A stretch of DNA of 64,000 nucleotides from Christensenellaceae bacterium (GCA_017523755.1 JAFWWA010000038.1:1-64000); one strand, 5' to 3'; positions 6,577-27,637 are shown, counted from the first letter of the stretch. Notes: generated from the sequence alone by a model not told the origin. Translations and numbers: made by a program.

Positions 6577-7746
6577 TCTGTTTTTATACTTATCAAGCAG
6601 CTCGTGCATGATCCTTTCGGGGGCGGCTCCCTCTCTGTTCCTGTTCACCATGTAGGAAAGGGGAGGGACAGCGTGATCGAAGAATCTTCTTAATCCGCTG
6701 CAGAGAAGATAATGTCCGGGTTCTCCTCTCGGGGAAACTGCAGTTCTGTCCTTTAAACATCCTCCTCTGCAGAATCTCAGATATCTGCACGACCGGCAGC
6801 ATCCTGTGAGCCCTTTCTTTTTCAGACTGCCGAAGCTTAGCTGAGCTTCTGAATCCACCGCATCCTTAAGGGAGTCTGTAAGAACATTGCCAAGCCTGTG
6901 CTCTTTGTCCACGAAATGGTCACAGGAATAGATGCCGCCGTCCTTTTCCACTACGAGGACCCTTCCGCATACCGGCATCATGGTGCAGAGAGACGCCGTG
7001 CCGCCCATGAGGACTCTTATGATCTCCATGAAAAACTGTACCTGCGTCCGGCCCATGTCTTCATACAGCCACTCGTCGAACACTTCTGTAAGGAAATCAC
7101 CGTACATATCGGGAGTGACGGAGTCTTCAGTCAGTGTTCCGTCAGGCATATACCTCACTATAGGTATGAACTGCATCCAGCCTGTGCCCATATCCCTTAA
7201 AGCTCTGTAGGTCTCCCTGGCTTTCCCCGCAGTCATACTTGTAACCGTGCACAGGAGATCGGGCCTGATACCGATGTCCATGAGCTTTTTTACCGTATTC
7301 CTTGCATTATCCCATGTAGGAAGACCTCTTGTATCTTTCCTGAAGGTATCGTGTACCTCTTTTGTACCGTCAATGCTGAGCCCGATATCGAAATGCTCAT
7401 CTTTAATGAACTTAAGCCATTCGTCGTCAAGGTCCTGCCCGTTCGTCTGAAGATTGTTCCAGACCTCCTGACCAGGTCTTAAGTACTTCTTCTGGAGCTC
7501 CACGGCGCGCTTAAAGAATGAGAGCGATGCAAGGGTAGGCTCGCCGCCGTGCCATGTGAAAGAGCATACATTCCCCGGGCACGTGGTCATGTATGAGCGT
7601 ATATATGCTTCGAGCACCTCGTCTGACATCCTGCCCTGAGCTCCGCCTTCAGTATTATGAAGATAATAGCAGTAGCTGCAGTTCATGTTGCAGGACGATC
7701 CGACGGGCTTTGCCATCACGGCAAAAGGAAGTCCGGCGTTTGGCAT
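6574..7746 (-). CDS. Anaerobic sulfatase-maturating enzyme (radical SAM/SPASM)
   Basis: With ATG 7746 the protein has 390 residues, the normal size for anSME; the frame stays open to 7893 but that extension overlaps the upstream hydrolase gene and reads as non-homologous. The N-terminal CNMNCSYCYY motif (CxxxCxxC) binds the S-adenosylmethionine 4Fe-4S cluster; HGGEPTL and LQTNGQDLD follow as in the family; the C-terminal SPASM cysteines appear as YSCDHFV and CCRSCRYLRFCRGGC, carrying two auxiliary clusters. By family it oxidises a Cys or Ser in sulfatases to formylglycine. No sulfatase lies in the window. It sits 16 bases after the hydrolase gene, so is co-transcribed. Confidence 0.92.
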   Translation of the reverse strand: MPNAGLPFAVMAKPVGSSCNMNCSYCYYLHNTEGGAQGRMSDEVLEAYIRSYMTTCPGNVCSFTWHGGEPTLASLSFFKRAVELQKKYLRPGQEVWNNLQTNGQDLDDEWLKFIKDEHFDIGLSIDGTKEVHDTFRKDTRGLPTWDNARNTVKKLMDIGIRPDLLCTVTSMTAGKARETYRALRDMGTGWMQFIPIVRYMPDGTLTEDSVTPDMYGDFLTEVFDEWLYEDMGRTQVQFFMEIIRVLMGGTASLCTMMPVCGRVLVVEKDGGIYSCDHFVDKEHRLGNVLTDSLKDAVDSEAQLSFGSLKKKGLTGCCRSCRYLRFCRGGCLKDRTAVSPRGEPGHYLLCSGLRRFFDHAVPPLSYMVNRNREGAAPERIMHELLDKYKNR

Positions 7747-7762
7747 CGGCGTTACCGTCCCG

Positions 7763-8530
7763 TTACGGTTTAAGATTCTTTTCGAAGAAGGCAAAGGCCT
7801 TCTCCCATGAGTCCATCGCCTGCTGCTGCCTGTACATCGGCGTATGATAGTACCATATCCCGTGGCCTGCGCCTTCATAGCGGTGGAATTCATAATCCTT
7901 GCCGAATTTTTTCAGTTCTTCCTCAAGCTTATCTACATCGTCCGCGGTCGGATTCCTGTCCTCATTGCCGAATATCCCCAGAAGAGGGCACTGCAGGTTT
8001 TCCGTATACTCGACCGGAGCTACGGGTCTTGCCGGCGTAGCGCTCTCGGGAGGAGCTACGACACTGCCTCCCCAGCAGTCTACCGCAGCATCGAAGCCTT
8101 CGACCGTGCAGGCTGCGAGGAACGAATGCCTGCCTCCAGAGCACATCCCTATTACTCCGACCTTTCCGTTTGAGTTAGCCTGGTTCTTCAGGAATGAGAG
8201 CGCTCCCTCACAGTCGCCCATGACGCTCCCGTCAGGGACACCGCCCTGGTCTCTTGCCATCTGTGATACTTCCGTAGGAGTACCGTGACCTATCCGGCAG
8301 TATATGTCCGGTGAAAGTACGGCATAGCCGTGCTGTGTGAATCTTCTTGCAGCTTCCCTCGTGAATTCATCCCATCCGGGCATATGGGGTATCATTACTA
8401 TCCCGGGGAAAGGTCCCTGCCCCAGAGGGCGGGAATAATACGCATGTATAGGATCACCGTTGTATCCTGGTATGACGACTGTCTCGGCTATCATTCCTTC
8501 ATAGCTGTCTGTCTTAAGATCGTTCCACAT
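7763..8530 (-). CDS. Dienelactone hydrolase family protein
   Basis: A 255-residue alpha/beta hydrolase. ATG 8530 is preferred because AGGAGG ends eight bases upstream; GTG 8539 would overlap that site. The nucleophile elbow is GMCSGG, with cysteine as in dienelactone hydrolase (GxCxGG); the Asp is in GNEDRNP and the His in GAGHGI. The family cleaves carboxylic esters and lactones; the context (sugar isomerase upstream, sulfatase maturase downstream) hints at a sugar-lactone or esterified-glycan substrate, but this is inference. An unusual CW-GG and proline-rich insertion (VVAPPESATPARPVAPVE) follows the elbow. Confidence 0.88.
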   Translation of the reverse strand: MWNDLKTDSYEGMIAETVVIPGYNGDPIHAYYSRPLGQGPFPGIVMIPHMPGWDEFTREAARRFTQHGYAVLSPDIYCRIGHGTPTEVSQMARDQGGVPDGSVMGDCEGALSFLKNQANSNGKVGVIGMCSGGRHSFLAACTVEGFDAAVDCWGGSVVAPPESATPARPVAPVEYTENLQCPLLGIFGNEDRNPTADDVDKLEEELKKFGKDYEFHRYEGAGHGIWYYHTPMYRQQQAMDSWEKAFAFFEKNLKP

Positions 8531-8566
8531 ATACAACACCTCCTGCTGTAATGATCTTCTTTATAT

Positions 8567-9391
8567 TCAGATGCCTTTTACGGCATCCTTCAGTACCGAT
8601 ATGTCTTCCTTTAAGAGCTCAAAAGCGTTATGATTTATTTTCCTCATCTCTTCCTCCGCGTATTTGTTCTCAAGTATGAGCCATCCTTCGTACTTATTTT
8701 CTTTAAGGACAGCTATCATGTCTTTAAACCCGGAGGTCCCTGTGCCGAGTATCCTTGAGGCGTTTTTGCCTGGGACACCGTCCTTTATGTGCATCTGGGA
8801 CGTGTAATACGGATAGAGCTCCCTTAAGCACTTAAGTCCGTCATAGCCAGCTACAGCATGATGGTTGCAGGTATCGAAGAAAAGACTGAAATTGCTGCGG
8901 TCCACCATCTCGATAAGGACTTTCTGTTCCTCGACAGTGTTGGGATTCTCGCACGCGATATTTATACCTTTTTCTCCTGCAAGATCGCAGAAGTATCTGT
9001 AACGTCTTACCGTGTTTATAAGGTCCTCCTCGGTCCTTATAAGGCTAGGCCCGAAATTGGCGAAGAACACCAGCCCTATGCCCATACGGGAAGCGGCGTC
9101 GATGGCTCCTTTTCCGATCTTGTCGAAGAGCTCGTCTTCCCACGATCCTCTTCTTGCGTGGAAGGGAAGGGTATCTCCGTCGCTCACGCCGATATTCGGG
9201 TATTCGATCATATACCTCTGCTGCGCGTCGAGGTAAAGGTCCTGGAGCTCTGTCATTGAGAGCGGATTTCCCTGCTGCCAGGGCCCGAACTCGATCGACA
9301 TGCCGTCAAGGCCGTATCTCTTTACTGTCTCCGGCACGAATGCTCCGCCTCCGGGGACACAGAAGTTGCATATACCGAGCTTTACGTCCAT
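8567..9391 (-). CDS. Sugar phosphate isomerase/epimerase family TIM-barrel protein
   Basis: A 274-residue protein of the xylose-isomerase-like TIM barrel (AP endonuclease 2) superfamily. Likely metal ligands are the Glu in IACENPN, Asp/His in FFDTCNHH, His in SQMHIKDG and Glu in LILENKY, spaced as in IolE/IolI and hexulose-phosphate epimerases. Ribosome site AGGAGAG precedes ATG 9391. It is the first gene of a minus-strand run with the hydrolase and the sulfatase maturase, with 36- and 16-base gaps. The exact substrate is not determinable; a keto-sugar or sugar acid is likely. Confidence 0.85.
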   Translation of the reverse strand: MDVKLGICNFCVPGGGAFVPETVKRYGLDGMSIEFGPWQQGNPLSMTELQDLYLDAQQRYMIEYPNIGVSDGDTLPFHARRGSWEDELFDKIGKGAIDAASRMGIGLVFFANFGPSLIRTEEDLINTVRRYRYFCDLAGEKGINIACENPNTVEEQKVLIEMVDRSNFSLFFDTCNHHAVAGYDGLKCLRELYPYYTSQMHIKDGVPGKNASRILGTGTSGFKDMIAVLKENKYEGWLILENKYAEEEMRKINHNAFELLKEDISVLKDAVKGI

Positions 9392-9542
9392 ATCATCTCT
9401 CCTGTACTTATGCCTGATATAAGGGATACTGATATTTTACCATATATCGAAGCTCAGGCATATCAAAACGGGGCCCCGCACTTGAGGTTTTTTCCCCGTG
9501 ATGATATCATCGCATGTAGAGCATTCTTTAGGAGGCAGTAAG

Positions 9543-10277
9543 ATGTCCGAAAAATCATCTGTTTCATTTTTAAAGCAGAAGCCCATCGACCTTGTAAAGC
9601 AGTTCATATGCTATATCGGCGGGCTCCTCATACTTACCGTAGGTCTCAATCTCTCGAAGCTGTCGGGTCTGGGGATCTCTCCCGTGAGCTCGATACCAAG
9701 AGCGTGTGAGATAATATGGGGACTGACGCTCGGCACGACCAGCATGATAGTTTATGCGGTCCTGGTGCTGCTCCAGTTCATACTTTTGAGGAAGAGATTC
9801 AGGGTGATCAATATACTCGGGATAGTGGTCACGTTCCTGTTTTCATGGATGATCGACCTTACCGGTTCCGATCCCAGGGCTTTCGGACATCTCATGGCCG
9901 GACTTCCCGTTGCGGGGAGCTATCCCGTGAAGCTGGTCTATCTTGTCATAAGCATATTCCTTATAGCTCTTGGCGTATTCCTCTATACGTCAGCGCACTG
10001 GATACCGATGCCGGCTGAGGGGCTTGCAGAAGCGCTCTCAAATGTCACCGGAAAGGCTTTCGGTGACTGCAAGACCATGCTCGACTGCTCGCTCATAGCG
10101 ATAGCCCTCATACTCCAGCTCGTTTTCCTTGGAGGCTTCGATTCATTTAAGGATCCTTCGACTACGGTCGTAAGAGAGGGTACCATAATAAGCGCCGTGT
10201 GCGTCGGCCAGGTAGTGAAATTCTTCAATAAAAAGCTGGGACAGAAGCTCCAGGGCCTTCTTCATTCAAAAAAATAA
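9543..10277 (+). CDS. YczE/YyaS/YitT-family (DUF6198-like) membrane protein
   Basis: A 244-residue protein from ATG 9543 (AGGAGG nine bases upstream; an earlier in-frame ATG at 9498 has none). Five to six hydrophobic helices are visible, with the family-type GLNLSKLSGLGISPVSSIP segment after TM1 and a short basic C-tail. The family is conserved in Firmicutes without a settled function; some members are suspected to be transporters or regulators. It is followed 17 bases later by tldD, so it probably shares a transcript with the TldD/TldE pair. Confidence 0.8.
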   Translation: MSEKSSVSFLKQKPIDLVKQFICYIGGLLILTVGLNLSKLSGLGISPVSSIPRACEIIWGLTLGTTSMIVYAVLVLLQFILLRKRFRVINILGIVVTFLFSWMIDLTGSDPRAFGHLMAGLPVAGSYPVKLVYLVISIFLIALGVFLYTSAHWIPMPAEGLAEALSNVTGKAFGDCKTMLDCSLIAIALILQLVFLGGFDSFKDPSTTVVREGTIISAVCVGQVVKFFNKKLGQKLQGLLHSKK

Positions 10278-10294
10278 ACTGAAAGGAAATACAG

Positions 10295-11683
10295 ATGTTA
10301 AGCAGGGAACAACTTGAAAAGTATCTTGCGCTGTGCATGTCCTCGGAAGCGGATTTCGCCGAGATCTATGAGGAGAATGAGGTCAGCGAAACGATATCGA
10401 TGCTGAGCGGCAAGGTGGAGAACGTCAATACCGTAGTCGTCTCTGGCATAGGCATAAGACTGTATAAGGACGTACAGTCCGTTTACGCTTATTCGAACGA
10501 GAGCGACGAGGCGTCGGTCATCCCGCTCATAAACGACCTTAAGGGAGCGATAGGCAGGAGCGATAAGGAAGCGTCCGTCAAGCTTGAAAGAGTCGAATAT
10601 GAGAACAGGCATCCGGTAGAGATAGATTTCGAGAAGACTCCTCTTAGTGAGAAGACCGATCTTCTAAAGAGGGCAAACGATGCTGCCTTCGCTTCCGATG
10701 ACAGGATAGTCAAGGTACAGACGACGCTCCTCAACGTAAAGCAGGACGTGCAGATATCCAATTCCAACGGAAGGCTCATTTCGGATACGAGGGTCAGGAC
10801 GAGGCTCATGGCGACGGCGTATGCCGATGAGAACGGAAATCTCCAGAGCGGCTCGGACAGACCCGGAGCAGGAAAAGGCCTCGAGTACTACAGGGAATAT
10901 ACTCCGGAGCAGGTGGGAAGGGAAGCTGCAAGGACGGCTCTCGTGAACCTCATCGCAAAGGACTGCCCCTCGGGACAGATGACGGTCATCATAGACAACG
11001 CCTTCGGCGGTGTCATATTCCACGAAGCCTGCGGGCATGCTCTTGAAGCCACTTCGGTGAGCAAGAACCAGTCCGTCTTCACCGGAAAGCTCGGTCAGCA
11101 GATAGCTAACACATGCGTATCCGCCGTCGACGACGGGACAATAAAGAACGCGTGGGGCTCCGAAAATATCGACGACGAAGGGAACTTCCAGAAGAGGAGA
11201 GTCTTAATAAAGGACGGTATACTCACTTCCTACATGATCGATACATTGAACGGCAGGAGGATGGGCATGGAGTCGACCTCCAGCTCAAGGAGACAGTCCT
11301 ACAAGTTCGAGCCTACTTCAAGGATGTCGAACACGTTCATCCTCGAGGGCGACGCGAAGTTCGAGGAGCTATTTGAGGGAGTGGAGAAGGGCCTCTACGC
11401 AAAGAAGATGGGCGGAGGCAGTGTAAATCCTCAGACCGGCGAATTCAACTTCGCGGTACAGGAAGGCTATATGATCGAGAATGGGAAGATCACGTATCCA
11501 GTCAAGGGAGCGGCTCTCATCGGCAACGGCAAGGACATACTCTTCAATATCGACAGGGTATGCTCCAACCTTGAACGCGGCCAGGGGATGTGCGGCTCTA
11601 TGAGCGGTTCGATACCTACAGACGTAGGCCAGCCGGCTATAAGGGTAACGAACATAACTGTCGGAGGAACTGCAAATGAATAA
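10295..11683 (+). CDS. tldD: TldD metalloprotease subunit
   Basis: A 462-residue protein of the TldD/PmbA (TldE) superfamily. The HEACGH sequence (about residue 248) is the HExxxH zinc site of TldD; upstream DNAFGGVIFHEACGHA and the C-terminal VGQPAIRVTN region match the catalytic subunit. In E. coli the TldD/TldE heterodimer trims unfolded peptides, removes the microcin B17 leader and degrades the CcdA antitoxin. Here no RiPP precursor or CcdAB gene lies nearby. Ribosome site AAAGGAAA precedes ATG 10295, and the stop overlaps the start of the next gene by eight bases. Confidence 0.94.
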   Translation: MLSREQLEKYLALCMSSEADFAEIYEENEVSETISMLSGKVENVNTVVVSGIGIRLYKDVQSVYAYSNESDEASVIPLINDLKGAIGRSDKEASVKLERVEYENRHPVEIDFEKTPLSEKTDLLKRANDAAFASDDRIVKVQTTLLNVKQDVQISNSNGRLISDTRVRTRLMATAYADENGNLQSGSDRPGAGKGLEYYREYTPEQVGREAARTALVNLIAKDCPSGQMTVIIDNAFGGVIFHEACGHALEATSVSKNQSVFTGKLGQQIANTCVSAVDDGTIKNAWGSENIDDEGNFQKRRVLIKDGILTSYMIDTLNGRRMGMESTSSSRRQSYKFEPTSRMSNTFILEGDAKFEELFEGVEKGLYAKKMGGGSVNPQTGEFNFAVQEGYMIENGKITYPVKGAALIGNGKDILFNIDRVCSNLERGQGMCGSMSGSIPTDVGQPAIRVTNITVGGTANE

Positions 11684-17646: not shown

Positions 17647-19554
17647 TTATCTGATGTCAAGTATATAGGGGAGCTCCCTTACGATATCACGGTCGAGCTC
17701 GACATATCTCGAAGCCGCGTCTTCCCTGTAGTTCCTAAGGATACTGTCAGCCAGCGCTTCGGCTTCAGGCAGTTCCCCGACACTGACCATTGCCGGATGG
17801 AGGAGCATGTCGTCGTTCTTGACTCTTCTTCCGCCTGACATGAATGCCGCGGTCTCCTCCTGTTCCTTTTCCATCCTGCGCCAGCCCATCGTCCGCTGGT
17901 AGGCGTTCCATCTCAAGTGCTCAAAGTCGCCCATGAGCATCAGGTTCCCGCTGTTTTCAAGCCATTTGCTTATTGCCTCTTTCCCTGCATTTGCGTCATT
18001 TAGCACATGCCTTATATACGCGAGCTTGAATTCCATGGCGAGAGCTTCGTTTAAGGATGAATCGAAATTGACGTATGAATAGAAGCCGGTATCCTCAAGG
18101 ACTTTTTCCTGCTCGGAAGGGCTCCTGTCTTTTATCCCTTCGTAAGATCCTGCAAGATAAGTGATATGGACCCTCTTTGCAGCGTCCTCCAGCTCCGGAT
18201 GCGTCAGCCTTCCTATATCGAATATCTCCTTCATATCTCCGAAGAAGTATATGCCGTTTCTTTCTCTGAAAGAAGCCCTTAAGGCTGCCGACCTGATCCT
18301 TACGGCCATCCTGGGATATTCCATCCCGCTGTTCCTACCGCCATAGATCCTCATCAGCCTCATTGCGGTCATATAGTTCATCTCGTCGTTCTTAAGCGCG
18401 ACTGTGATAAGGTCAGGGTTTTTAACTGCTTCAGTGATATCTTCGAGCCCGCTCCCTGTTACATCCGCATCGTAGAACACTATATCGTAGTTCCTTAACG
18501 GATCGTGGTCGTTTAGGAAGTAGCGGTCAATAGGAAGATTAAGGAGTTCTGGACAGGAGGCCTTGAGCCTTGAGGCGATGCTCCTTATATCCCTGTCTAT
18601 GACGTGGATGGTCGAGCATGAACCGGGTTCTATCATGAGCGGGACCGCGAATCTTAAGATCTCAAGCCCGAGGCGCCCCGCTCCGATGATCATGATCTCC
18701 TTATGTTCCTTTCCCGTAAGGACGTTTGTATTCTCCCTTAAGAGCTCAACCGCAAGCGACGCATTCTCGTCAAGAGGCCTTAAGTCGACTTTTTCCCCGA
18801 ACCTGCTGTCGATGTCCCTTATGAGGTCAAGCGAGTTCCTTGAAGCCAGATACCGTACGGTGACGTTCCCTTTTTCATATCTCCTGCTGCTTATCAGCGA
18901 TGAGCAAAGAGCTGAGAGGGTACTGAGATTCTTATCCGCGTCGTCATTTATGACATAGAAGACATATCTTCTGTTCCTTCTTAAATTCTTTTTGTCTATG
19001 CCGCCTTTCTGCAGGAATGAGCCTATCCTCGTGATCCTTGTAAAAAGATCGTTGTCCTGGTCGGTTGGCGTGTCGGCAAAGGTTATCATGTCCCTCGGTG
19101 AAGATGAATGTATGCTCTCGGCGATCACCGCCGTCTTCTCGTTAAGTCCTGAGAAGACGTGCTCCTGTCTGCTGCCGCACTGGAGTATACGCTCAATGAT
19201 ATTCCTTGAGAAGCTTATAAGGAATACGGAAGCGGTCACGGGGCCTGCTATGTAGAGAAGATAGAGCAGGCTTGCCGATACGGCACCCGTTATCGTTCCA
19301 TCGCTCAGGGCTTCCGTCACCTGGGAGTCGGCTCCCATGGCTATCGACGAAACGCCGTATCTTACGCTTTTGAAAAGGGCATAGATGATACCGTTCTCCT
19401 TCTCCATGAAATATGGAAGGACGAGCGCGGTCACAGCAAGGGAAAAGCCCGCTGTAAGTATCGCGGATCTAGCCCTGAGGCTCCCTTTCGACCTTACGGC
19501 CCTTATTATGAAAAAGATGAGTATCAGGACAGCTGCAGCAAGAAAGAAAATCAT
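17647..19554 (-). CDS. Membrane protein with tandem Rossmann/RCK-like and C-terminal RyR domains
   Basis: A 635-residue protein with three N-terminal hydrophobic helices (about 2-20, 31-50, 92-116). After them is a cytosolic region: a first nucleotide-binding-like unit (about 131-260, beginning HVFSGLNEKTAVIAESI), then a TrkA-N/RCK-type Rossmann fold with IGAGRLGLEIL (about 290-300) and the acidic strand end HVIDRD. The last 95 residues resemble the RyR domain: EHLRWNAYQRTMGW (about 545-558), LHPAMVSVGELPE (about 585-597) and ELDRDIVRELP. This resembles a ligand-gated channel or transporter built like RCK-gated potassium systems; no selectivity filter (TVGYG-type) is evident, so pore identity is open. 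A GGAG ribosome site precedes ATG 19554. Divergent from the TIR gene, 112 bases apart. Confidence 0.75.
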   Translation of the reverse strand: MIFFLAAAVLILIFFIIRAVRSKGSLRARSAILTAGFSLAVTALVLPYFMEKENGIIYALFKSVRYGVSSIAMGADSQVTEALSDGTITGAVSASLLYLLYIAGPVTASVFLISFSRNIIERILQCGSRQEHVFSGLNEKTAVIAESIHSSSPRDMITFADTPTDQDNDLFTRITRIGSFLQKGGIDKKNLRRNRRYVFYVINDDADKNLSTLSALCSSLISSRRYEKGNVTVRYLASRNSLDLIRDIDSRFGEKVDLRPLDENASLAVELLRENTNVLTGKEHKEIMIIGAGRLGLEILRFAVPLMIEPGSCSTIHVIDRDIRSIASRLKASCPELLNLPIDRYFLNDHDPLRNYDIVFYDADVTGSGLEDITEAVKNPDLITVALKNDEMNYMTAMRLMRIYGGRNSGMEYPRMAVRIRSAALRASFRERNGIYFFGDMKEIFDIGRLTHPELEDAAKRVHITYLAGSYEGIKDRSPSEQEKVLEDTGFYSYVNFDSSLNEALAMEFKLAYIRHVLNDANAGKEAISKWLENSGNLMLMGDFEHLRWNAYQRTMGWRRMEKEQEETAAFMSGGRRVKNDDMLLHPAMVSVGELPEAEALADSILRNYREDAASRYVELDRDIVRELPYILDIR

Positions 19555-19600
19555 ACAGGATCATCTCCGGATTTTTAGATCATGTAAATATAATAACACA

Positions 19601-19660
19601 TAGCTTACTTATTGGCTAACCGAACGTGATATAATCACCTTATAGGAAATTACGGAGGAC
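19601..19660 (+). promoter_or_regulatory. Promoter and ribosome site of the TIR gene
   Basis: Extended -10 TGATATAAT (TATAAT at 19630-19635) in the 112-base divergent region, with ribosome site CGGAGG before GTG 19667. No strong -35, as common with extended -10 promoters. The short shared region invites co-regulation with the minus-strand partner. Confidence 0.6.
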
Positions 19661-19666
19661 AGTAAC

Positions 19667-22600
19667 GTGGCTGATACCGGTAAACAGGAAAATCCGCAGA
19701 CCGAAGAAAGAAGATATAAGGCTTTTATAAGCTACAGGCACAAGCCTCTTGACAGACAGGCGGCTGAGATGATCCAGAAGAAGATCGAGAGCTTCAGGGT
19801 GCCAAAGGAATTCAGGGACAGGACCGGAGGGGACAGACTGGGCATAGTTTTCAGGGACGAGGATGAGCTTCCGGCTTCATCGAGCCTTTCTGACAGTATA
19901 ACGTACGCGCTCGACCACACGGAGTATCTCATAGTCATCTGTACGCCCGAACTTCCGCAGTCAAGATGGTGCGAGCAGGAGATAAAGTATTTCCTTGAGA
20001 CGCACAGCAGGGACAAGATAATCGCCGTGCTCGTCGACGGGGAACCTGATATATCGTTCTCACCGTATCTTCTCAACGTATACGACAGCGAGGGGAACGT
20101 GGTACGTGAGGTAGAGCCTCTTGCGGCAAATATAAAGGGACCGGATCATACCATCGATAAAAAGGCATTCAAAAAGGAGATAGTGAGGCTCTATGCCGCC
20201 CTTATCGGATGTCCTTTCGACAGCCTCTGGCAGCGTGAGCGCAGGCGCAGGACGAATACCCTCATAGGTCTCCTCTCCGGAGTCGCGGCAGTCCTTACGG
20301 TATTCCTCGCTCTTGTGATATCGAACAATATGAAGATAACGGAGAAGAACCGCGAGATAACAGAAAAGAACGATGAGATATTAAAGCAGAACGAGGAGAT
20401 AGAACAGAAGAACGACACCATAACGAAGCAGAACACCGATCTTAAACAGCGGATGTCTTCGCTTTACGTCGATCAGGGCTTCAGCCTTCTTGAGCAGTTC
20501 GATCTTAAGGGCTCGCTTAAGAATGCCATGCTCGCGTACGGCGACGGGGAAGACGGCGTATATGACTTAAGGACGGAAAAGCTGCTGACGGAGGCGCTTG
20601 GATCGTATGAATATAACGGGATAAGGAACACGGTATTCTATGAACAGTCCTCTGACATCGTGCAGATGGCTGTTTCATGTGACGGGAGCAGTATCTTCGT
20701 TCTTGACAATGAAGGAGTTATCAGATGCATCGACGCTGAAAATGCAGAGATCCTGTGGCAGGCTTCGTTCGGGAAAGGCAGCAGGGACAGGAAAGGCACC
20801 GATGTCTATGTCCCTGAAACAGGAGACAGGGTCATAGTAAAGACACTGGACCGGGTGAGGGCCTTTGACGCCAAGACTGGAGAGATGATCTGGGAGTACT
20901 ATTCCAAATTCTCCACTGGATATCCGTTCCAGCTTTTGTCTCCTGACGGCATGAGGTTTTCGCTGATCGATCTCATAGACGGGAAATATACGCTCATAAC
21001 TCTTGACGCTTATTCAGGTAAGACCGTTTCAGCCGTGACGCTTCCGAGCGGGAACTTCAGTCCCGTCGGGGCATGCTGGTATTCGGTAGGCTGCGCGTAT
21101 TCGCCCGATTCGTCGCTCATAGGCATATCGTACGAATACTTAAAAAGCAGCACAGACGATCCGTCGGATGGAGGGGCAGGGCTTAAGGAGATAGCCGAAA
21201 GCGCAGGGATGAGCGGAGACGACATAGCCGCTCTGTTCCAGAGCCTGGACGCAAATGTAGACGATCTTCTTGAACTCGGCGACAAAAGGAAAAGCACGGG
21301 AGAAGATGAAAAGGATGAATCGATATATCTGTATCTCGTGATAGACCCGGCCTCCGGTGAGATAGTAAGGAGATATCTGAAAAATGACAGGCCGAGCCCT
21401 ACAAAGATCTATTTCGGCATGACGGTCGAAAACGGCACCGGGAACATGCTGTTGACCGAATACAGCAGCATCTACGGCGGGATGATCGCGACATATATCG
21501 ACTGGGACAAAGATATTCATGAAAGAAAACTGTATAATCAGATACTCAACGAGAACGACAGCTGGTCGATGGGCATATCGGCGGTAAAGCCGCTTGCGTC
21601 AGACGATCTCCTTGTCATCTTCATGTATGATACGATGTTCATTTTCAACAGATCTGACGGAAAACTCAGGAAAAATTACAAGTTCGACGGGGATATAGTC
21701 AGCGCCTCCTTTTATGACAGGGAAAATGAGGTCGTAGATTTCTGCCTGAGCACAGGGGAAGCGTGGAGATTCGATCTTGAGCATGAGGGCACATCGGCTT
21801 ACGCAAGGGCAGTGCAGACCCATCTGTATCAGGACGGTGTTATGACGGCTGACAGCCTGAAAGACAGGGAGATATATTTTACCGTAAGGAATGAAGCGCA
21901 GGGAAAGATAATAAGGGCTGAGAAGCATTCTGATACGTCGGGAAGCGTTTTTGAAGGCAGAAGCAGGGCTGGTCTCTATATGATACCAGGGTCCGACTGT
22001 ATCATGGCCTTTGATCCGGGAGATGAGGATACGGTGGTCACGGTCTATGACAGCAGCCTTAAGGAGATAAAAGCCTCGGATTCTTTTGAGGGCTATTATA
22101 CGAATCTGTTTGACGGAAGGCTGTGCCCTTTTGGTGAGGATGCTTTTTTATACAGCAATAAGATATTCAGATTCGGTGCTGCGGAGCCTGAGGTGCTTGA
22201 CGGCTCGCTGGATGACGGATACCTGCTGTATGATCCGGTACATTTCCGACTTGGAAACGGGGATGTCATGTCTTATACCAGCGGCTGGGTATATATCGGG
22301 GGAAGTCTATACAAGCGCTGCTGGATAAACGGGAACAGAGTCTGGCAGTCTACTATAAAAGACCTGGGCATATCCTTCCCTTACGACATAAACCGGAGCT
22401 CATCCATTATGACCCTTGTCGGTGACAGCGGACTGATCGCGGGCATAGGCTATGAGCATGTAAAGGGAAGCTCTGATATAAAGCGGGTCATAAAATGCTT
22501 TGATCCGTATGGCATAGCTCTCTATACCGCTGATATGCCGTTTGAATCTGATGACGGGCTTATCTGCGCGATGGGGAGGACTGAGCCTCTGTTCCTGGCA

Positions 22601-23095
22601 TATGACGGCGAAGGGAAGCTTTATGTCATGGATCTTAAGAGCGGGAGCTTGTCCGTCATAGGGCCTGACAGCATGCTCGAGAACACCGCAGCCGTCTGTT
22701 TCAGTCAGGATGACGCATATATCTGCGCACTCTCCGGGTCCGGAAAGCTTTCCGTCATAAGGGCAGCGGACGGCGAGATCGTATACAGCGGCTATCCCGG
22801 GATAAGCAAGCTTCCCGAGAATGAGCGCATAGAGGCAGATGTCATAGATGAAGGAAAGCGTCTCTGTGTCAAGATCCCCAATGTATCAGGAGATAATGCC
22901 AGATCCGACTGGTTCATGTTCGATACTTCTACATGGGACATCGTGCAGCATACCATCGACGTGCTAATGTTCAATGCCAAAAACAGGATGCTCTATATAG
23001 AAAGGGATTATACGCATACGGTCGCGTGCAGGGTACATACCTTAAATGATCTTCTTGAAGAAGCCCGAGGATATATAGAGGAAGTGGAAAGATAG
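19667..23095 (+). CDS. TIR-transmembrane-coiled-coil-beta-propeller protein
   Basis: 1142 residues. TIR domain at about 15-150: RRYKAFISYRHKPLD at its start, FRDEDELPASSSL, and SRWCEQEIKYFLE holding the Glu (about 105) that is catalytic in NADase TIRs. A basic patch RERRRR (about 191-196) precedes a single TM helix (199-219), then six clean heptads (ITEKNRE ITEKNDE ILKQNEE IEQKNDT and two more, to about 267). The remaining 850 residues are repeated beta-blades of the PQQ/WD40 type (for example CIDAENAEILWQASFG and AFDAKTGEMIWEYYS). The basic flank puts TIR inside and the propeller outside by the positive-inside rule, so it reads as a one-pass receptor. It uses GTG with CGGAGG upstream. No nuclease or SAVED/STALD domain seen. 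Confidence 0.85.
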   Translation: MADTGKQENPQTEERRYKAFISYRHKPLDRQAAEMIQKKIESFRVPKEFRDRTGGDRLGIVFRDEDELPASSSLSDSITYALDHTEYLIVICTPELPQSRWCEQEIKYFLETHSRDKIIAVLVDGEPDISFSPYLLNVYDSEGNVVREVEPLAANIKGPDHTIDKKAFKKEIVRLYAALIGCPFDSLWQRERRRRTNTLIGLLSGVAAVLTVFLALVISNNMKITEKNREITEKNDEILKQNEEIEQKNDTITKQNTDLKQRMSSLYVDQGFSLLEQFDLKGSLKNAMLAYGDGEDGVYDLRTEKLLTEALGSYEYNGIRNTVFYEQSSDIVQMAVSCDGSSIFVLDNEGVIRCIDAENAEILWQASFGKGSRDRKGTDVYVPETGDRVIVKTLDRVRAFDAKTGEMIWEYYSKFSTGYPFQLLSPDGMRFSLIDLIDGKYTLITLDAYSGKTVSAVTLPSGNFSPVGACWYSVGCAYSPDSSLIGISYEYLKSSTDDPSDGGAGLKEIAESAGMSGDDIAALFQSLDANVDDLLELGDKRKSTGEDEKDESIYLYLVIDPASGEIVRRYLKNDRPSPTKIYFGMTVENGTGNMLLTEYSSIYGGMIATYIDWDKDIHERKLYNQILNENDSWSMGISAVKPLASDDLLVIFMYDTMFIFNRSDGKLRKNYKFDGDIVSASFYDRENEVVDFCLSTGEAWRFDLEHEGTSAYARAVQTHLYQDGVMTADSLKDREIYFTVRNEAQGKIIRAEKHSDTSGSVFEGRSRAGLYMIPGSDCIMAFDPGDEDTVVTVYDSSLKEIKASDSFEGYYTNLFDGRLCPFGEDAFLYSNKIFRFGAAEPEVLDGSLDDGYLLYDPVHFRLGNGDVMSYTSGWVYIGGSLYKRCWINGNRVWQSTIKDLGISFPYDINRSSSIMTLVGDSGLIAGIGYEHVKGSSDIKRVIKCFDPYGIALYTADMPFESDDGLICAMGRTEPLFLAYDGEGKLYVMDLKSGSLSVIGPDSMLENTAAVCFSQDDAYICALSGSGKLSVIRAADGEIVYSGYPGISKLPENERIEADVIDEGKRLCVKIPNVSGDNARSDWFMFDTSTWDIVQHTIDVLMFNAKNRMLYIERDYTHTVACRVHTLNDLLEEARGYIEEVER

Positions 23096-23415: not shown

Positions 23416-24114
23416 CTATGATGAATGGTAAACGACCTTGCCGAATATCCTGGCACTGTCGTAGCTGTTTATCCTTATCGGGGGATACTTGCTGTTGTGG
23501 GACAGGAGCAGTATACCTTCGTCGGTCACGCTGTATTCCTTTACATACGCGTCGCCGTTGAGATAGAAGACGCCTATGTCTCCGTTTTCAAGGGTATCCT
23601 GCATATGTACCCATATGGAGCCTCCGTCGGTAAGAGTGGGCTCCATGCTCGTGCCGTTGACGTGAAGGCCGAAATCTATGCCGCCGGGAGCGCCGTCGGG
23701 AACGGGAGCCATCTCATAGCTGTCGCTGTCAAGGAAATCGCCTGTGCCGGCTGATGCCGCCAAATCGTAGAATCTTACGAGCCTCAGAGGCGTCATGTCC
23801 GCCTTCCTCGGAGCATATCTCCCGCTTTCTATAAGGAGCTGTCTGTAATCTTCAAGCTTCATCATACCTTCGCGGTTGAGCTCGGGCATCCCTTCCTCGC
23901 CCTTCATGAACGTACCGTATACGTCCTTTACGGAATATATCCGGCAGAGAGCTATGAACTGTTCTATGCCGGGGCTGTTTATATCGTTCTCCCATCTGCT
24001 TAAGGACTGCTGGCGGACGTTTACTCCCATGTCAAGGAGCATGCGCGTCACGTCGCGCTGTTTTAATCCGCTTCTTTCCCTGAGCCTCCGGAATATGCTG
24101 CCGTAATTTTTCAT
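23416..24114 (-). CDS. XRE-family repressor with S24 (LexA-like) autoprotease domain
   Basis: A 232-residue protein: XRE helix-turn-helix (about 5-62, with QQSLSRWENDINSPG), linker, then peptidase S24. The predicted self-cleavage pair is Ala122-Gly123 (LAASAGTGDF), nucleophile Ser156 (NGTSMEPT) and general base Lys192 (AYVKEY); the 34- and 36-residue spacings match LexA/CI-type self-cleaving repressors, so RecA-stimulated inactivation is likely. Ribosome site GGAAGG lies nine bases before ATG 24114. It is divergent from the polymerase operon across a region with an SOS box, and probably represses it. Co-transcribed with the LexA-DBD gene downstream. Confidence 0.9.
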   Translation of the reverse strand: MKNYGSIFRRLRERSGLKQRDVTRMLLDMGVNVRQQSLSRWENDINSPGIEQFIALCRIYSVKDVYGTFMKGEEGMPELNREGMMKLEDYRQLLIESGRYAPRKADMTPLRLVRFYDLAASAGTGDFLDSDSYEMAPVPDGAPGGIDFGLHVNGTSMEPTLTDGGSIWVHMQDTLENGDIGVFYLNGDAYVKEYSVTDEGILLLSHNSKYPPIRINSYDSARIFGKVVYHSS

Positions 24115-24190
24115 GATCGATATCCTTCCTTTTTATCTATCATGATTATATATCCGCTGATATATAAAATCAACAAAAATATCCAAAATA

Positions 24191-24202
24191 GAACATTTGT
24201 TC
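24191..24202. promoter_or_regulatory. SOS box GAACATTTGTTC with polymerase promoter
   Basis: Perfect GAAC-N4-GTTC palindrome, the Firmicutes LexA (Din) box, in the divergent region. Just downstream a promoter reads toward the polymerase: -35 TTGTTT (24205-24210), 17 bases, -10 AATAAT (24228-24233). The box adjoins the -35 and also lies upstream of the XRE-S24 gene. Confidence 0.85.
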
Positions 24203-24291
24203 GCTTGTTTTGTGTTCTGATGCGTGTAATAATGAGACTGCGCGATATGGAGACGCTTTACAGGACATAACAGGACAGAGGAGGTGCGGAC

Positions 24292-25575
24292 GTGAAAAAA
24301 AGGACATACCTTTGCATAGACATGAAGAGCTTTTACGCGTCCGTCGAATGCGCGGAAAGAGATCTTAACCCGTTCGAGACGAATCTCGTCGTATCGGACG
24401 TCACAAGAGGGAAGAACGCGCTCTGCCTTGCCATAAGCCCGAAAATGAAGGCTCTGGGCATAAAGAACCGCTGCAGGATCTCGGACATACCTGCCGTTGT
24501 GGAATATATAGCCGCAAAGCCCAGGATGCAGCTCTATGTCGATTATGCCGCGGATATCTATCAGATCTATCTCGACTATTTTTCAAGCAGCGATATATAC
24601 GTCTATTCGATCGATGAGAGCTTCATCGACGTGACGGATTACCTGTCACTGTATGAAACGGACGGTATAGGGCTTGCGAAGACGCTCATGAACGAGATAG
24701 CCTTAAGGCTCATGATCCCGTCGACCGCGGGAGTGGGCACGAATCTGTATCTCGCGAAGGTCGCCCTTGACATAACGGCGAAACACGCGGGGGATCATAT
24801 AGGATATCTGGACGAGGAGAGCTACAGAAGGGAGCTGTGGGACCACCGCCCCATAACCGACTTCTGGCAGATAGCGAGGGGCACCGCGGGAAGGCTCATG
24901 AGATACGGCATAACGACGATGAGGGGCGTGGCGAACGCACCTGAGGATTTCCTTTACGGGATATTCGGGATAAACGCGGAGCTGCTGATAGACCACGCCT
25001 GGGGAAGGGAGCCCTGTCTCATATCCGACATAAAGAACTACAGGAGCAGGACCCGGTCGGTATCCTTCTCACAGATACTGCCCAGGGACTACAGCTTCGA
25101 CGGGGCCAGGACCGTTATGAACGAGATGATATATAACGGCTGCCTCGAGATGATGAGAAGACATGTCATCACGAAGAACATATGGATAGGAGTCGGCTAC
25201 TCGGGATTTGACGGAGCGATGTCGAAGGGATCCGTAAGGATAGGGAACGCGTCCTCGCTGTATTCCAAGATATCGGGACCGGTGCTGTCGCTGTATGACA
25301 GGACGGCCGTAAGGGATTCTAAGATAAGGCGGCTCGCCATAAGCTTCAACAACGTGTGTGACGAGAACTGCGGGGGCTATGATCTCTTTACCGACTGGCA
25401 CAGCGCCGACAGGGAGAAGGCAAGAGAGAAGGCTGCGCTCGAGATCGCGGAGAAGTTCGGGAAGAATGCGCTCTTAAGAGGCACGAACTATCTTGAAGGA
25501 GCCACGCAGAGGGAACGCAACGGAATGATAGGAGGACACAGAGCCGGCTATGATGATGAGAGAAGAAAGGGCTAA
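24292..25575 (+). CDS. Y-family (UmuC/UvrX-like) translesion DNA polymerase
   Basis: 427 residues, GTG start with AGGAGG eight bases upstream. Palm/finger motifs are CIDMKSFYASVECAERD (metal Asp, about residue 10), YVYSIDESFIDVTDY (metal Asp/Glu, about 105) and AGVGTNLYLAKVALD. A little-finger-like C-terminal domain follows. The sequence and its partner gene YolD-like match the UvrX/UmuC-type polymerases of Firmicutes rather than DinB. Function: error-prone bypass of damaged DNA. It overlaps the next gene by 26 bases, so it heads a tightly coupled SOS operon (24292-27082). Confidence 0.92.
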   Translation: MKKRTYLCIDMKSFYASVECAERDLNPFETNLVVSDVTRGKNALCLAISPKMKALGIKNRCRISDIPAVVEYIAAKPRMQLYVDYAADIYQIYLDYFSSSDIYVYSIDESFIDVTDYLSLYETDGIGLAKTLMNEIALRLMIPSTAGVGTNLYLAKVALDITAKHAGDHIGYLDEESYRRELWDHRPITDFWQIARGTAGRLMRYGITTMRGVANAPEDFLYGIFGINAELLIDHAWGREPCLISDIKNYRSRTRSVSFSQILPRDYSFDGARTVMNEMIYNGCLEMMRRHVITKNIWIGVGYSGFDGAMSKGSVRIGNASSLYSKISGPVLSLYDRTAVRDSKIRRLAISFNNVCDENCGGYDLFTDWHSADREKAREKAALEIAEKFGKNALLRGTNYLEGATQRERNGMIGGHRAGYDDERRKG

Positions 25576-25909
25576 GCAGTTCATGGCCTTCGACGCCATG
25601 AAGGGCCTTTCCGAAGCCTTAAGGGACAGGGAAGAGAGGCATTCGAGAGTCGACAGGCGCGAGCTCACGGATGAGGAGAAGAAGGACAACAACGACGTTA
25701 TAGCCCACGCCGAAAAGGGCATGGGCATGAGGATAAGATATTACAGGGACTTTCATGAGAGGGAAAGGAGCGGGATCATAACGAAGATAGAGGCGGAGAA
25801 AAGATATCTGATGCTCGACGATGAGAAGATACTGTTCACGGATATCTATCATATGGAGATCACCGAGCCCGCACCGAGGCACAGCGAAGAGGAGGACGCC
25901 CGGCACTGA
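25550..25909 (+). CDS. YolD-like protein
   Basis: 119 residues. The start MREERAKQFMAFDAMKGLSEALRDREERHS matches the YolD-like family, which in B. subtilis and its phages sits beside UvrX-type polymerases and is suspected to be a UmuD-like accessory. The C-terminal half carries GIITKIEAEKRYLMLDDEKI and IYHMEI, a beta-rich region that matches the family. It begins 26 bases inside the polymerase gene (ATG 25550), implying coupling, and ends one base before the next start. Confidence 0.82.
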   Translation: MMMREERAKQFMAFDAMKGLSEALRDREERHSRVDRRELTDEEKKDNNDVIAHAEKGMGMRIRYYRDFHERERSGIITKIEAEKRYLMLDDEKILFTDIYHMEITEPAPRHSEEEDARH

Positions 25910-26146
25910 ATGGAAAACGACCGCATAGAGATAAAAGTAAGGCAGGGCCGCTTTAAAAGGCCGGAACAGGTCATCTGGAAGGACGGCAGGCGCTGGAAGA
26001 TAAAAAGGGTCCTCCATACGGCAAAGAGCCCCGACATGTCATATAAGGGGACCAGGTACACGGTGCTTATGGGCGACAGCGAGAGATATATCTACAGGGA
26101 CAGGGACAGCTGGTATGTGTTAAAAGAAGGAAAGGAAAAGGATTGA
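25910..26146 (+). CDS. Small hypothetical protein of the SOS operon, 78 aa
   Basis: Starts right after the YolD-like stop (TGA-ATG) and its own stop overlaps the next TTG start. A basic, beta-rich sequence (EIKVRQGRFKRPEQVIWKDGRRWKIKRV, then GTRYTVLMGDSERYIY) with no TM or cysteines. The pattern resembles small proteins found in this same operon position in other Clostridia, but I know no function. It may bind DNA or the polymerase, given the coupling. Confidence 0.7.
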   Translation: MENDRIEIKVRQGRFKRPEQVIWKDGRRWKIKRVLHTAKSPDMSYKGTRYTVLMGDSERYIYRDRDSWYVLKEGKEKD

Positions 26147-26856
26147 AGACACTGATCTCAATGAGCGAGATAGAAGAAGTCGGGGAAGGCATGATGAACG
26201 AGTATATGAAGGGAAGAGGTCTCTGCTGCGATATAGAGGGATTCATCACCGAGCGTCTTGGCATGAGGATAGAATATGCGGATATCGCTGACAGGAACAT
26301 AATGGCGTTCATCTCCGACGGAAGATACAGGGTAGAGACCGTAAGGGGAGGAAGAAAGAAAAAGAGGATATTCAGAAAAGGTACGCTCGTGGTGAACGGT
26401 TATCTTTTAAGGAACGATATGAGCGGGCAGCGGAGGTTCACGCTGGCGCATGAGGCTGCTCATGTGCTTATAGGCAGGATGAGCGCATGCGACGCGGAGC
26501 CTGTGAGTGACAGGACTGATGATGCCGCTGACAAAGGATATGCAACGGAAAGATCGGAGTTCACGGCGATAGTAGAGAGGACCGCCGACAGGATGGCAAC
26601 AGCCCTGCTCATGCCGAAGGGAAAGATGAGGGAGCTGATAAGAAGGTACGGGACCCCTGTCATATACGGGAAAAGCACCTTCAAAAGATCCGACAAGATA
26701 AGGATACAGGAGATGGCAGATGCTCTGGGGGTCACCTTCACCGCGATGAAGCTCAGGCTTGAAGGCCTTGATATGATGGAACACAGGGATATAAGGGAGT
26801 ATATAAGAGAGGAGATGGATTTCTCTAAAGATGCGGGAAAGAGGCAGTACATATGA
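26143..26856 (+). CDS. ImmA/IrrE-type zinc metalloprotease
   Basis: 237 residues. The zinc site is HEAAHVLIGRM (HExxH at about residues 103-107), with a downstream acidic helix ERTADRMATALLMPKG supplying the third ligand, the ImmA/IrrE (DUF955) signature. ImmA-type enzymes cleave a repressor to release mobile elements; IrrE cleaves DdrO after DNA damage. Beside an S24 repressor and SOS polymerase, it probably processes a repressor of this operon, but the target is not shown. The TTG start overlaps the previous stop (TTGA), with AAGGAAAGG upstream. Its final third includes a possible helix-turn-helix (IQEMADALGVTFTAMKLRLEGL). Confidence 0.88.
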   Translation: MKTLISMSEIEEVGEGMMNEYMKGRGLCCDIEGFITERLGMRIEYADIADRNIMAFISDGRYRVETVRGGRKKKRIFRKGTLVVNGYLLRNDMSGQRRFTLAHEAAHVLIGRMSACDAEPVSDRTDDAADKGYATERSEFTAIVERTADRMATALLMPKGKMRELIRRYGTPVIYGKSTFKRSDKIRIQEMADALGVTFTAMKLRLEGLDMMEHRDIREYIREEMDFSKDAGKRQYI

Positions 26857-26908
26857 AAAAAGACGGGCCGGGACGCCCGCCAAAGAGGAAAGACCGGGAC
26901 CGGTCAGG

Positions 26909-27082
26909 ATGCATCTTAAGGCAAGGGACATAAGATGCCCTGTCTGCAGCTTCAGGATAATGACAGCCTTTGAAGATGCGGGCAGGGGACATATAAAGGT
27001 CAAATGCCAGAAATGCAAAAAGGAAACGGTGCTTGATCTCAGATATTTCAGGAAAAGAAAATGCCGGCCTCACACGGCATGA
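26909..27082 (+). CDS. Small zinc-ribbon (Com-like) protein
   Basis: 57 residues from ATG 26909, although the frame is open back to 26831 with an overlapping start. Four cysteines in two pairs, CPVCSF and CQKCKK, form a zinc ribbon as in the phage Com family of regulators. It ends the SOS operon. The true start is uncertain because two other in-frame possibilities exist and the overlap region is low-complexity and basic (RPPKRKDRDR in another frame). Confidence 0.6.
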   Translation: MHLKARDIRCPVCSFRIMTAFEDAGRGHIKVKCQKCKKETVLDLRYFRKRKCRPHTA

Positions 27083-27138
27083 TATAAGGCACTTAAGCGT
27101 GCATGCGGAGCATACTTAGATATCCCCCTAAGATGACT

Positions 27139-27205
27139 TCCGGGCGCCGCAGGGAAAGTTTGAAGTTTTACATGCTTCAGCTTTCGGCTGCGGCGCTTTT
27201 GTTTT
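27139..27205 (+). terminator. Long hairpin with T-tract before the sigma-like gene
   Basis: GCGCCGCAGGGAAAG (27144-27158) pairs with CTTTCGGCTGCGGCGC (27181-27196, one bulge) and is followed by TTTTGTTTTTT. It ends the SOS operon but lies only about 25 bases before the ribosome site at 27219, so a transcript of the next gene may have to pass it. Confidence 0.75.
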
Positions 27206-27229
27206 TTCGGGGGACGGGAAGGAGCAGAT

Positions 27230-27637
27230 TTGGAACTGATACGGATGACAAAAGAAGATTATGTGAAACAGGGGATGTCCCTTGCTGATGCCGAGAAAAT
27301 GGAAAGATACTTAAGGGACGAGATGAACAGGGACAATTGTTTTTACAGGCATGAAAAGCCGGGACTCGATAAAATGATGCTCACAGAAGATGACATCATG
27401 CTTCCTGAAACTCTCTGGGCTGAAAGCATAGAAGACGAAAGGATATACAGGGCAGTCATGTCGCTTAGCAGAAGGAACAGAAAAATGCTTTTCCTAAGAG
27501 TTATAAAAGGGCTCAAGATGAGCGAGGTCGCTTATGAGATGTCGGTTTCGAAGCAGTCAGCCAGCAACACGATGAGGAAGATACTGAAACATATGAGGGA
27601 AATATATACCGGTAGTTCGTATATCGGTGAATATTAA
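27230..27637 (+). CDS. Sigma-factor-like (region 4) protein
   Basis: 135 residues, TTG start with AAGGAG five bases upstream. The last third is a sigma-70 region 4 helix-turn-helix: RNRKMLFLRVIKGLKMSEVAYEMSVSKQSASNTMRKILKHMRE. No region 2 (-10 binding) is present, so it is a region-4-only protein like those in some phages and ICEs, or a small DNA-binding regulator. Its N-terminal 70 residues are acidic and unrecognised. It is just downstream of the SOS operon and of a terminator hairpin. Confidence 0.7.
   Translation: MELIRMTKEDYVKQGMSLADAEKMERYLRDEMNRDNCFYRHEKPGLDKMMLTEDDIMLPETLWAESIEDERIYRAVMSLSRRNRKMLFLRVIKGLKMSEVAYEMSVSKQSASNTMRKILKHMREIYTGSSYIGEY

Follow-up and report, generated by a model that had tools for sequence, protein, structure and literature searches.

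Whether cyclic ADP-ribose (cADPR) acts directly on ryanodine receptors is a long-standing question. For bacteria, RyR domains were reportedly predicted to be nucleotide sensors by Burroughs et al. in 2015, in an in-silico account that is said to have grouped TIR, SLOG and RyR domains in conflict systems. Among the described systems in which a TIR protein is combined with an effector, Thoeris has, besides other effectors, caspase-type ones. The ThsA effectors of Thoeris dealt with in PMC11204291 are of the SIR2-SLOG or the macro-domain type. The animal ryanodine receptor channel has been implicated in modulation by cADPR (via PMC13232231), and RyR-domain proteins of phages bind the TIR-made isomers 2'cADPR and 3'cADPR with nanomolar affinity through four residues, H75, W78, H100 and D117 (RyDEP numbering), of which H75 and D117 are the catalytic residues of RyDEP; of eight phage homologues assayed, six bound and none cleaved the ligand, despite conservation of these residues (PMC13232231, May 2026).

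We analysed a window of 64,000 nucleotides from a Christensenellaceae bacterium (GCA_017523755.1 JAFWWA010000038.1:1-64000), in which a TIR gene and a gene encoding a RyR-domain membrane protein (P0001) lie side by side. The two reading frames are divergent, 112 bp apart and located where the original prediction had placed them. Their features are as follows (positions in the window):

17647..19554, minus strand: RyR-RCK membrane protein P0001, 635 aa, proposed nucleotide-gated channel effector
19171..19554, minus strand: membrane part, residues 1-128, with TM helices 2-21, 26-52 and 88-127 (AlphaFold2)
19336..19389, minus strand: pore-helix-like helix 56-73 between TM2 and TM3, without TVGYG (AlphaFold2)
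18730..19167, minus strand: first RCK/TrkA-like Rossmann domain, residues 130-275 (AlphaFold2 and structure matches)
18199..18705, minus strand: second RCK/TrkA-like Rossmann domain, residues about 284-452, with an intact GxGxxG-like loop (GAGRLG)
17650..18192, minus strand: C-terminal helical RyR module, residues about 455-635, RyR core about 543-605
17908..17919, minus strand: H546-x-R-W549, predicted ligand motif (RyDEP H75, W78)
17797..17799, minus strand: H586 (RyDEP H100 position)
17746..17748, minus strand: D603 (RyDEP D117 position)
19555..19666, no strand: divergent intergenic region, 112 bp
19667..23095, plus strand: TIR - TM - coiled coil - beta-propeller protein, 1142 aa, GTG start
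19697..20236, plus strand: TIR domain, residues about 11-190 (Pfam)
19979..19981, plus strand: predicted catalytic glutamate E105 in SRWCEQE (alignment)
20252..20320, plus strand: single TM helix, with RERRRR just before it (sequence)
20645..23092, plus strand: PQQ/WD40-like beta-propeller, putative sensor region (Pfam)

The arrangement is reminiscent of Thoeris in that a TIR protein is found beside an effector expected to respond to a TIR-made ADP-ribose signal, and the TIR of the window exceeds the Pfam cut-offs of ThsB_TIR (PF08937; 27.5 bits, cut-off 21.2) and of TIR_2 (36.1 bits, cut-off 28), next to PQQ/propeller matches. The glutamate of the WCEQE motif, which the TIR had been said to retain, is residue E105; in the alignment it falls on the glutamate of the TIRs linked to related effectors. 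In contrast to Thoeris, however, the effector is a membrane RCK-RyR protein and the TIR is fused to a TM helix and a propeller; none of the known Thoeris effector domains (SIR2-SLOG, macro-TM, ThcA, caspase) was found in P0001 or its family, and neither NCBIfam (June 2026) nor PADLOC (2023) holds a model that fits the effector. A literature search that did not extend to the TIR survey of Yirmiya et al. 2025 found no paper describing TIR proteins with RyR/RCK channels. We place the pair among the TIR nucleotide-signalling systems, as a Thoeris-like arrangement whose effector differs, and not in a new category. The RERRRR stretch preceding the TM helix suggests a topology with the TIR inside and the propeller outside, and we propose that the TIR protein is both the sensor and an NAD-cleaving signal synthase.

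The AlphaFold2 model of P0001, calculated with the family alignment, has a mean pLDDT of 88.9 and contains the three TM helices that had been predicted, followed by tandem RCK domains; the TrkA/RCK-like Rossmann fold was also correctly foreseen, except that there are two such domains and not one. In the model, helix 56-73 looks like a re-entrant, pore-loop-like segment, and the TM1-TM2 loop is basic, which points to a cytosolic C-terminal half. The PDB structures closest to the model are the gating rings of CASTOR (E 1.3e-4) and DMI1, after which the Slo2 and Slo1 channels rank (Slo2.2, E 3e-3). With CASTOR/DMI1, Slo and RCK-gated channels in general, P0001 thus shares the succession of TM helices and tandem RCK domains, but it differs from them in an extra N-terminal TM helix, in the C-terminal RyR domain and in the lack of a TVGYG selectivity filter, a motif that inspection of the sequences showed to be absent from P0001 and its homologues. 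Because this K+ filter is absent from the membrane part, ion conductance of P0001 is only putative. A BFVD fold search gave only poor glycosyltransferase-like Rossmann matches and no viral relative, a search for related loci found no relatives with P0001 as query and, with P0005 as query, no genome other than the one it comes from (a Clostridia MAG from goat omasum), and the only phmmer matches of P0001 in the PDB, to FtsZ, were weak (E about 0.05) and taken as chance. A single-sequence Pfam search with P0001 had no match either, with RyR and TrkA below their cut-offs, and the identity of the protein was therefore worked out from its relatives.

Among 30 family members, Pfam RyR matches nine and TrkA_N four, and the proteins P0008 and P0009 exceed the Pfam RyR (PF02026) cut-off. 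A profile of the family matches solved RyR structures, including animal R12 repeats, with E-values of 1e-8 to 1e-16 and also the RyR protein of Bacteroides thetaiotaomicron; with a profile of the C-terminal module the E-values are 1e-10 to 1e-21. An hhalign comparison of the C-terminal alignment with P0003, a free-standing RyR protein from a linked locus, gave E 4.5e-10, and P0001 scored higher than all of its 200 shuffles under a RyR profile built without it. The C-terminal RyR-like domain of the original prediction is thus borne out at the profile level and by the presence of the ligand residues. Foldseek with the isolated C-terminal RyR module (model pLDDT 95.5) matched no RyR structure, so that the assignment of the RyR fold depends on sequence profiles; possibly the match was missed because RyR repeats are paired in solved structures and the module has extra helices. 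Homology to the animal ryanodine receptor is confined to the RyR repeat (R12), which there is peripheral on a giant Ca2+ channel with an unrelated pore and scaffold.

As in RyDEP, the RyR part belongs to the PF02026 family and contains four ligand residues with matching spacing, although in RyDEP the domain makes up a small counter-defence protein of phages and in the window it is fused to a TIR-linked bacterial RCK membrane protein. The family residues are spaced 0, 3, 25 (longer by an insert in some sequences) and then +17, in agreement with RyDEP numbering, and the P0001 equivalents H546, W549, H586 and D603 keep this spacing except for one insert; the mapping was made by published residue numbering and the Pfam-family alignment, not with the RyDEP sequence itself. 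E545 and R548 are invariant in the 30-sequence family alignment, and H546, W549, G557 and H586 are nearly so. When 26 family sequences were compared at the ligand positions, the first histidine and the tryptophan were found in all 26, the second histidine in 24 and the aspartate in 18. The eight members without the acidic residue are all TIR-linked and retain H-x-R-W; at two TIR-linked loci (L067, L069) both the second histidine and the aspartate are gone. Since conservation within the family is highest at the RyR ligand residues, we lean towards the RyR domain and away from the RCK domains as the predicted receptor of the signal; the second RCK domain, with its GAGRLG loop, may have a role in sensing as well.

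Homologues of P0001 were detected in 8 of 101 related genomes. The family profile had about 30 long matches in 396 genomes of the order, in addition to many C-terminal-only ones, the weak ones among which (proteins of about 730 aa) were left out of the family; in the rest of the phylum the family is scarce (2 of 397 genomes besides the window, at high stringency). A TIR gene is located within 2.5 kb, and often within 20 bp, of 15 of the 29 strong homologues in the order (E 1e-50 or better, window included), compared with an expected linkage of about 1.6% per locus at a density of 1.7 TIR genes per Mb. Counted by genus, 12 of 18 in the order show the linkage, and the pairing is found in many Clostridia. 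TIR genes account for 19 of 187 neighbouring reading frames versus 2 of 294 further out (Fisher p = 8e-7). The gap between the two genes is 2-118 bp at many loci. Locus L013 has only these two genes in common with the window, in an identical divergent layout between unrelated flanks; the gap length is kept (112 bp in the window, 117 bp in L013) and the intergenic sequence is not, with no promoter conservation between the two and a promoter scan that did not rise above chance. On the evidence of these sequences, the TIR and RyR-RCK genes appear to move as a unit. Outside the order, RyR proteins are found near TIR genes at L096, L102 (where TrkA_N and RyR both exceed their Pfam cut-offs), L103 and L104, and near DUF4062 genes at L100 and L101. 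According to a report from 2026 (PMC13174449), DUF4062 is a TIR-like NADase, which suggests that the pairing of RyR proteins reaches TIR-like NADases too. About half of the strong homologues have no TIR gene within 2.5 kb, nor is one nearby at L105 or at the strong homologue L095; the effector can thus also be orphan, trans-acting or otherwise paired. The proposal of a two-gene system had been made dependent on a conserved neighbourhood, a RyR profile match and an active TIR domain, and the data spoke against it at none of these points: adjacency recurs in the order and, beyond it, in further families of the phylum, RyR profiles match, and the TIR, judged by its sequence, retains the predicted catalytic glutamate.

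Varied TIR fusions are combined with a constant RCK-RyR partner. A propeller is present on the partner TIR in the window and at L013, L065 and L066, and at other loci its place is taken by LRR (L017), NB-ARC/NACHT (L059), TPR (L019) or MORN (L014). Between the window and L013, identity is 78% for the TIR and 32% for the propeller part, and for the effector it is 50% in the RyR, 43% in the RCK and 38% in the membrane part. Such a pattern would be expected if the sensor diversified while signal and receptor stayed fixed as a pair.

We consider it probable that a nucleotide signal made by the sensor-TIR protein gates the RyR-RCK channel, likely in defence. As we infer it, the pair would work as a signalling unit made up of sensor and effector: the TIR protein would sense a stimulus via its beta-propeller and cleave NAD+, most likely to 2'cADPR or 3'cADPR or else to a related ADP-ribose product. 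The signal would bind to the H-x-R-W...H...D pocket in the RyR domain of the membrane protein, and the tandem RCK gating ring would relay it to the TM2-pore-helix-TM3 membrane part, which would then open. Opening could disturb ion balance or membrane potential and lead to growth stop or cell death, with defence against a phage or another invader as the likely role. The proposed link between ligand and receptor is plausible because phage RyR domains do bind TIR-made 2'/3'cADPR (PMC13232231). More tentatively, the locus may represent a widespread immune axis in which a cADPR isomer produced by NLR- and TLR-like TIR sensors directly opens a RyR-gated channel, an idea that we entertain without quite expecting it to hold.

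The same RyR domain could also be an off-switch that hydrolyses the TIR-made signal in the manner of RyDEP and keeps activation in check, with the RCK domains sensing the signal. The catalytic pair of RyDEP, H75/D117, does correspond to H546/D603, both of which are present in P0001, and the extra small free-standing RyR proteins at L014 and L015 would suit a buffer or hydrolase. However, eight TIR-linked members have lost the acidic residue yet keep H-x-R-W, which fits binding and not catalysis, and for this reason we regard binding as the shared function of the RyR part; in addition, conservation of the residues did not confer cleavage on any of the phage homologues, most of which bound (PMC13232231). 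We therefore find hydrolysis as the main role of the domain unlikely.

Distinctly unlikely, in our opinion, is a non-antiviral function, in which the propeller reads an extracellular or envelope cue and the RyR-RCK channel adjusts ion homeostasis, even though the RERRRR stretch predicts an outward propeller, K+ transport is normally under RCK control and the gene pair is often located among housekeeping genes (L013). The linked TIRs of relatives carry NB-ARC/NACHT or LRR domains of the kind usual in intracellular immune sensors, divergence is much faster in the sensor part than in the TIR, the distribution of the family is patchy, and a Shango defence system is encoded in the same window, all of which argues for defence. 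This presence of other defence genes in the window, together with the fairly common occurrence of TIR genes (about 1.7 per Mb), might in turn indicate that the two genes are neighbours merely through shared defence islands, with the TIR working on its own as an abortive NADase. Yet mere co-residence would hardly account for immediate adjacency with gaps of 2-118 bp, for a divergent layout kept in unrelated flanks, for linkage in 12 of 18 genera or for the position of RyR proteins next to TIRs and TIR-like NADases in further families, which makes this explanation highly improbable.

If gating of the RyR-RCK channel by a TIR-made signal is true, TIR immunity would gain an ion-channel effector class that is absent from the defence libraries and papers searched. 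The pair would then be a prokaryotic counterpart, perhaps a forerunner, of animal cADPR-RyR signalling and a compact, testable bacterial model for the link between cADPR and RyR, and it would help to explain the RyR-domain sponges and hydrolases of phages. Concrete targets for mutation are E105 in the TIR protein and H546, W549, H586 and D603 in P0001. Alongside the predictions reported for Burroughs et al., our analysis examined the pairing of an RCK channel with a TIR, the residue mapping and the sensor swapping.

RyR domains also occur in other proteins at the loci compared. At L019, L053 and L072 a related protein is encoded, a canonical Ion_trans_2 channel that combines the TVGYG filter with RyR at its C-terminus; it directly adjoins a family member at L019 and L053 and speaks for a channel architecture of the family. 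hhalign aligned the family with this K+-channel-RyR protein from the pore helix to the end of the RyR domain (E 2e-29), weakly over the pore part. The stand-alone RyR proteins next to the effector at L014 (8171-8449, 92 aa, Pfam E 1e-37) and L015 (9071-9382, 103 aa, Pfam E 6e-35) have a threonine at the RyDEP H100 position (KKETPCLVPY) and could be signal buffers or hydrolases. At L015 a TIR joined to the alpha, motor and gamma domains of FtsK (7284-9044) is encoded on one strand with the RCK-RyR protein and the stand-alone RyR protein beside it, and at L104 a single protein (7814-10408), encoded 1.6 kb from a TIR gene, unites RelA/SpoT-like, LSDAT (SLOG of TRPM) and RyR domains. Membrane proteins of about 600 aa adjoin RyR proteins at L089, L100 and L102; they match DUF4231 at L089 and weakly at L100, contain a VTGHRPGG motif at L100 and L102, and are possibly a further SLOG-type component. 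The source genome itself probably has a second TIR/RyR system: on contig C54 (L021, 8055-10957) a TIR-like protein without the catalytic glutamate and a TIR protein are encoded in the order found upstream of the RyR channel at L019, and the contig end interrupts the locus.

Within the window, the TIR gene is adjoined by a region (23416-27637) with an HTH-S24 repressor (minus strand), an IrrE/M78 peptidase, a sigma70 region-4 protein and a protein that by eye resembles a Y-family (UmuC-like) DNA polymerase, altogether like a regulatory module of the SOS response or of a mobile element. The Shango anti-phage system (45189-50886) is complete, with PADLOC matches to SngA (5e-61), SngB (2e-181) and SngC (7e-231), and its genes appear in Pfam as TerB_N/TerB_C, BrxC_BrxD and DEAD helicase.
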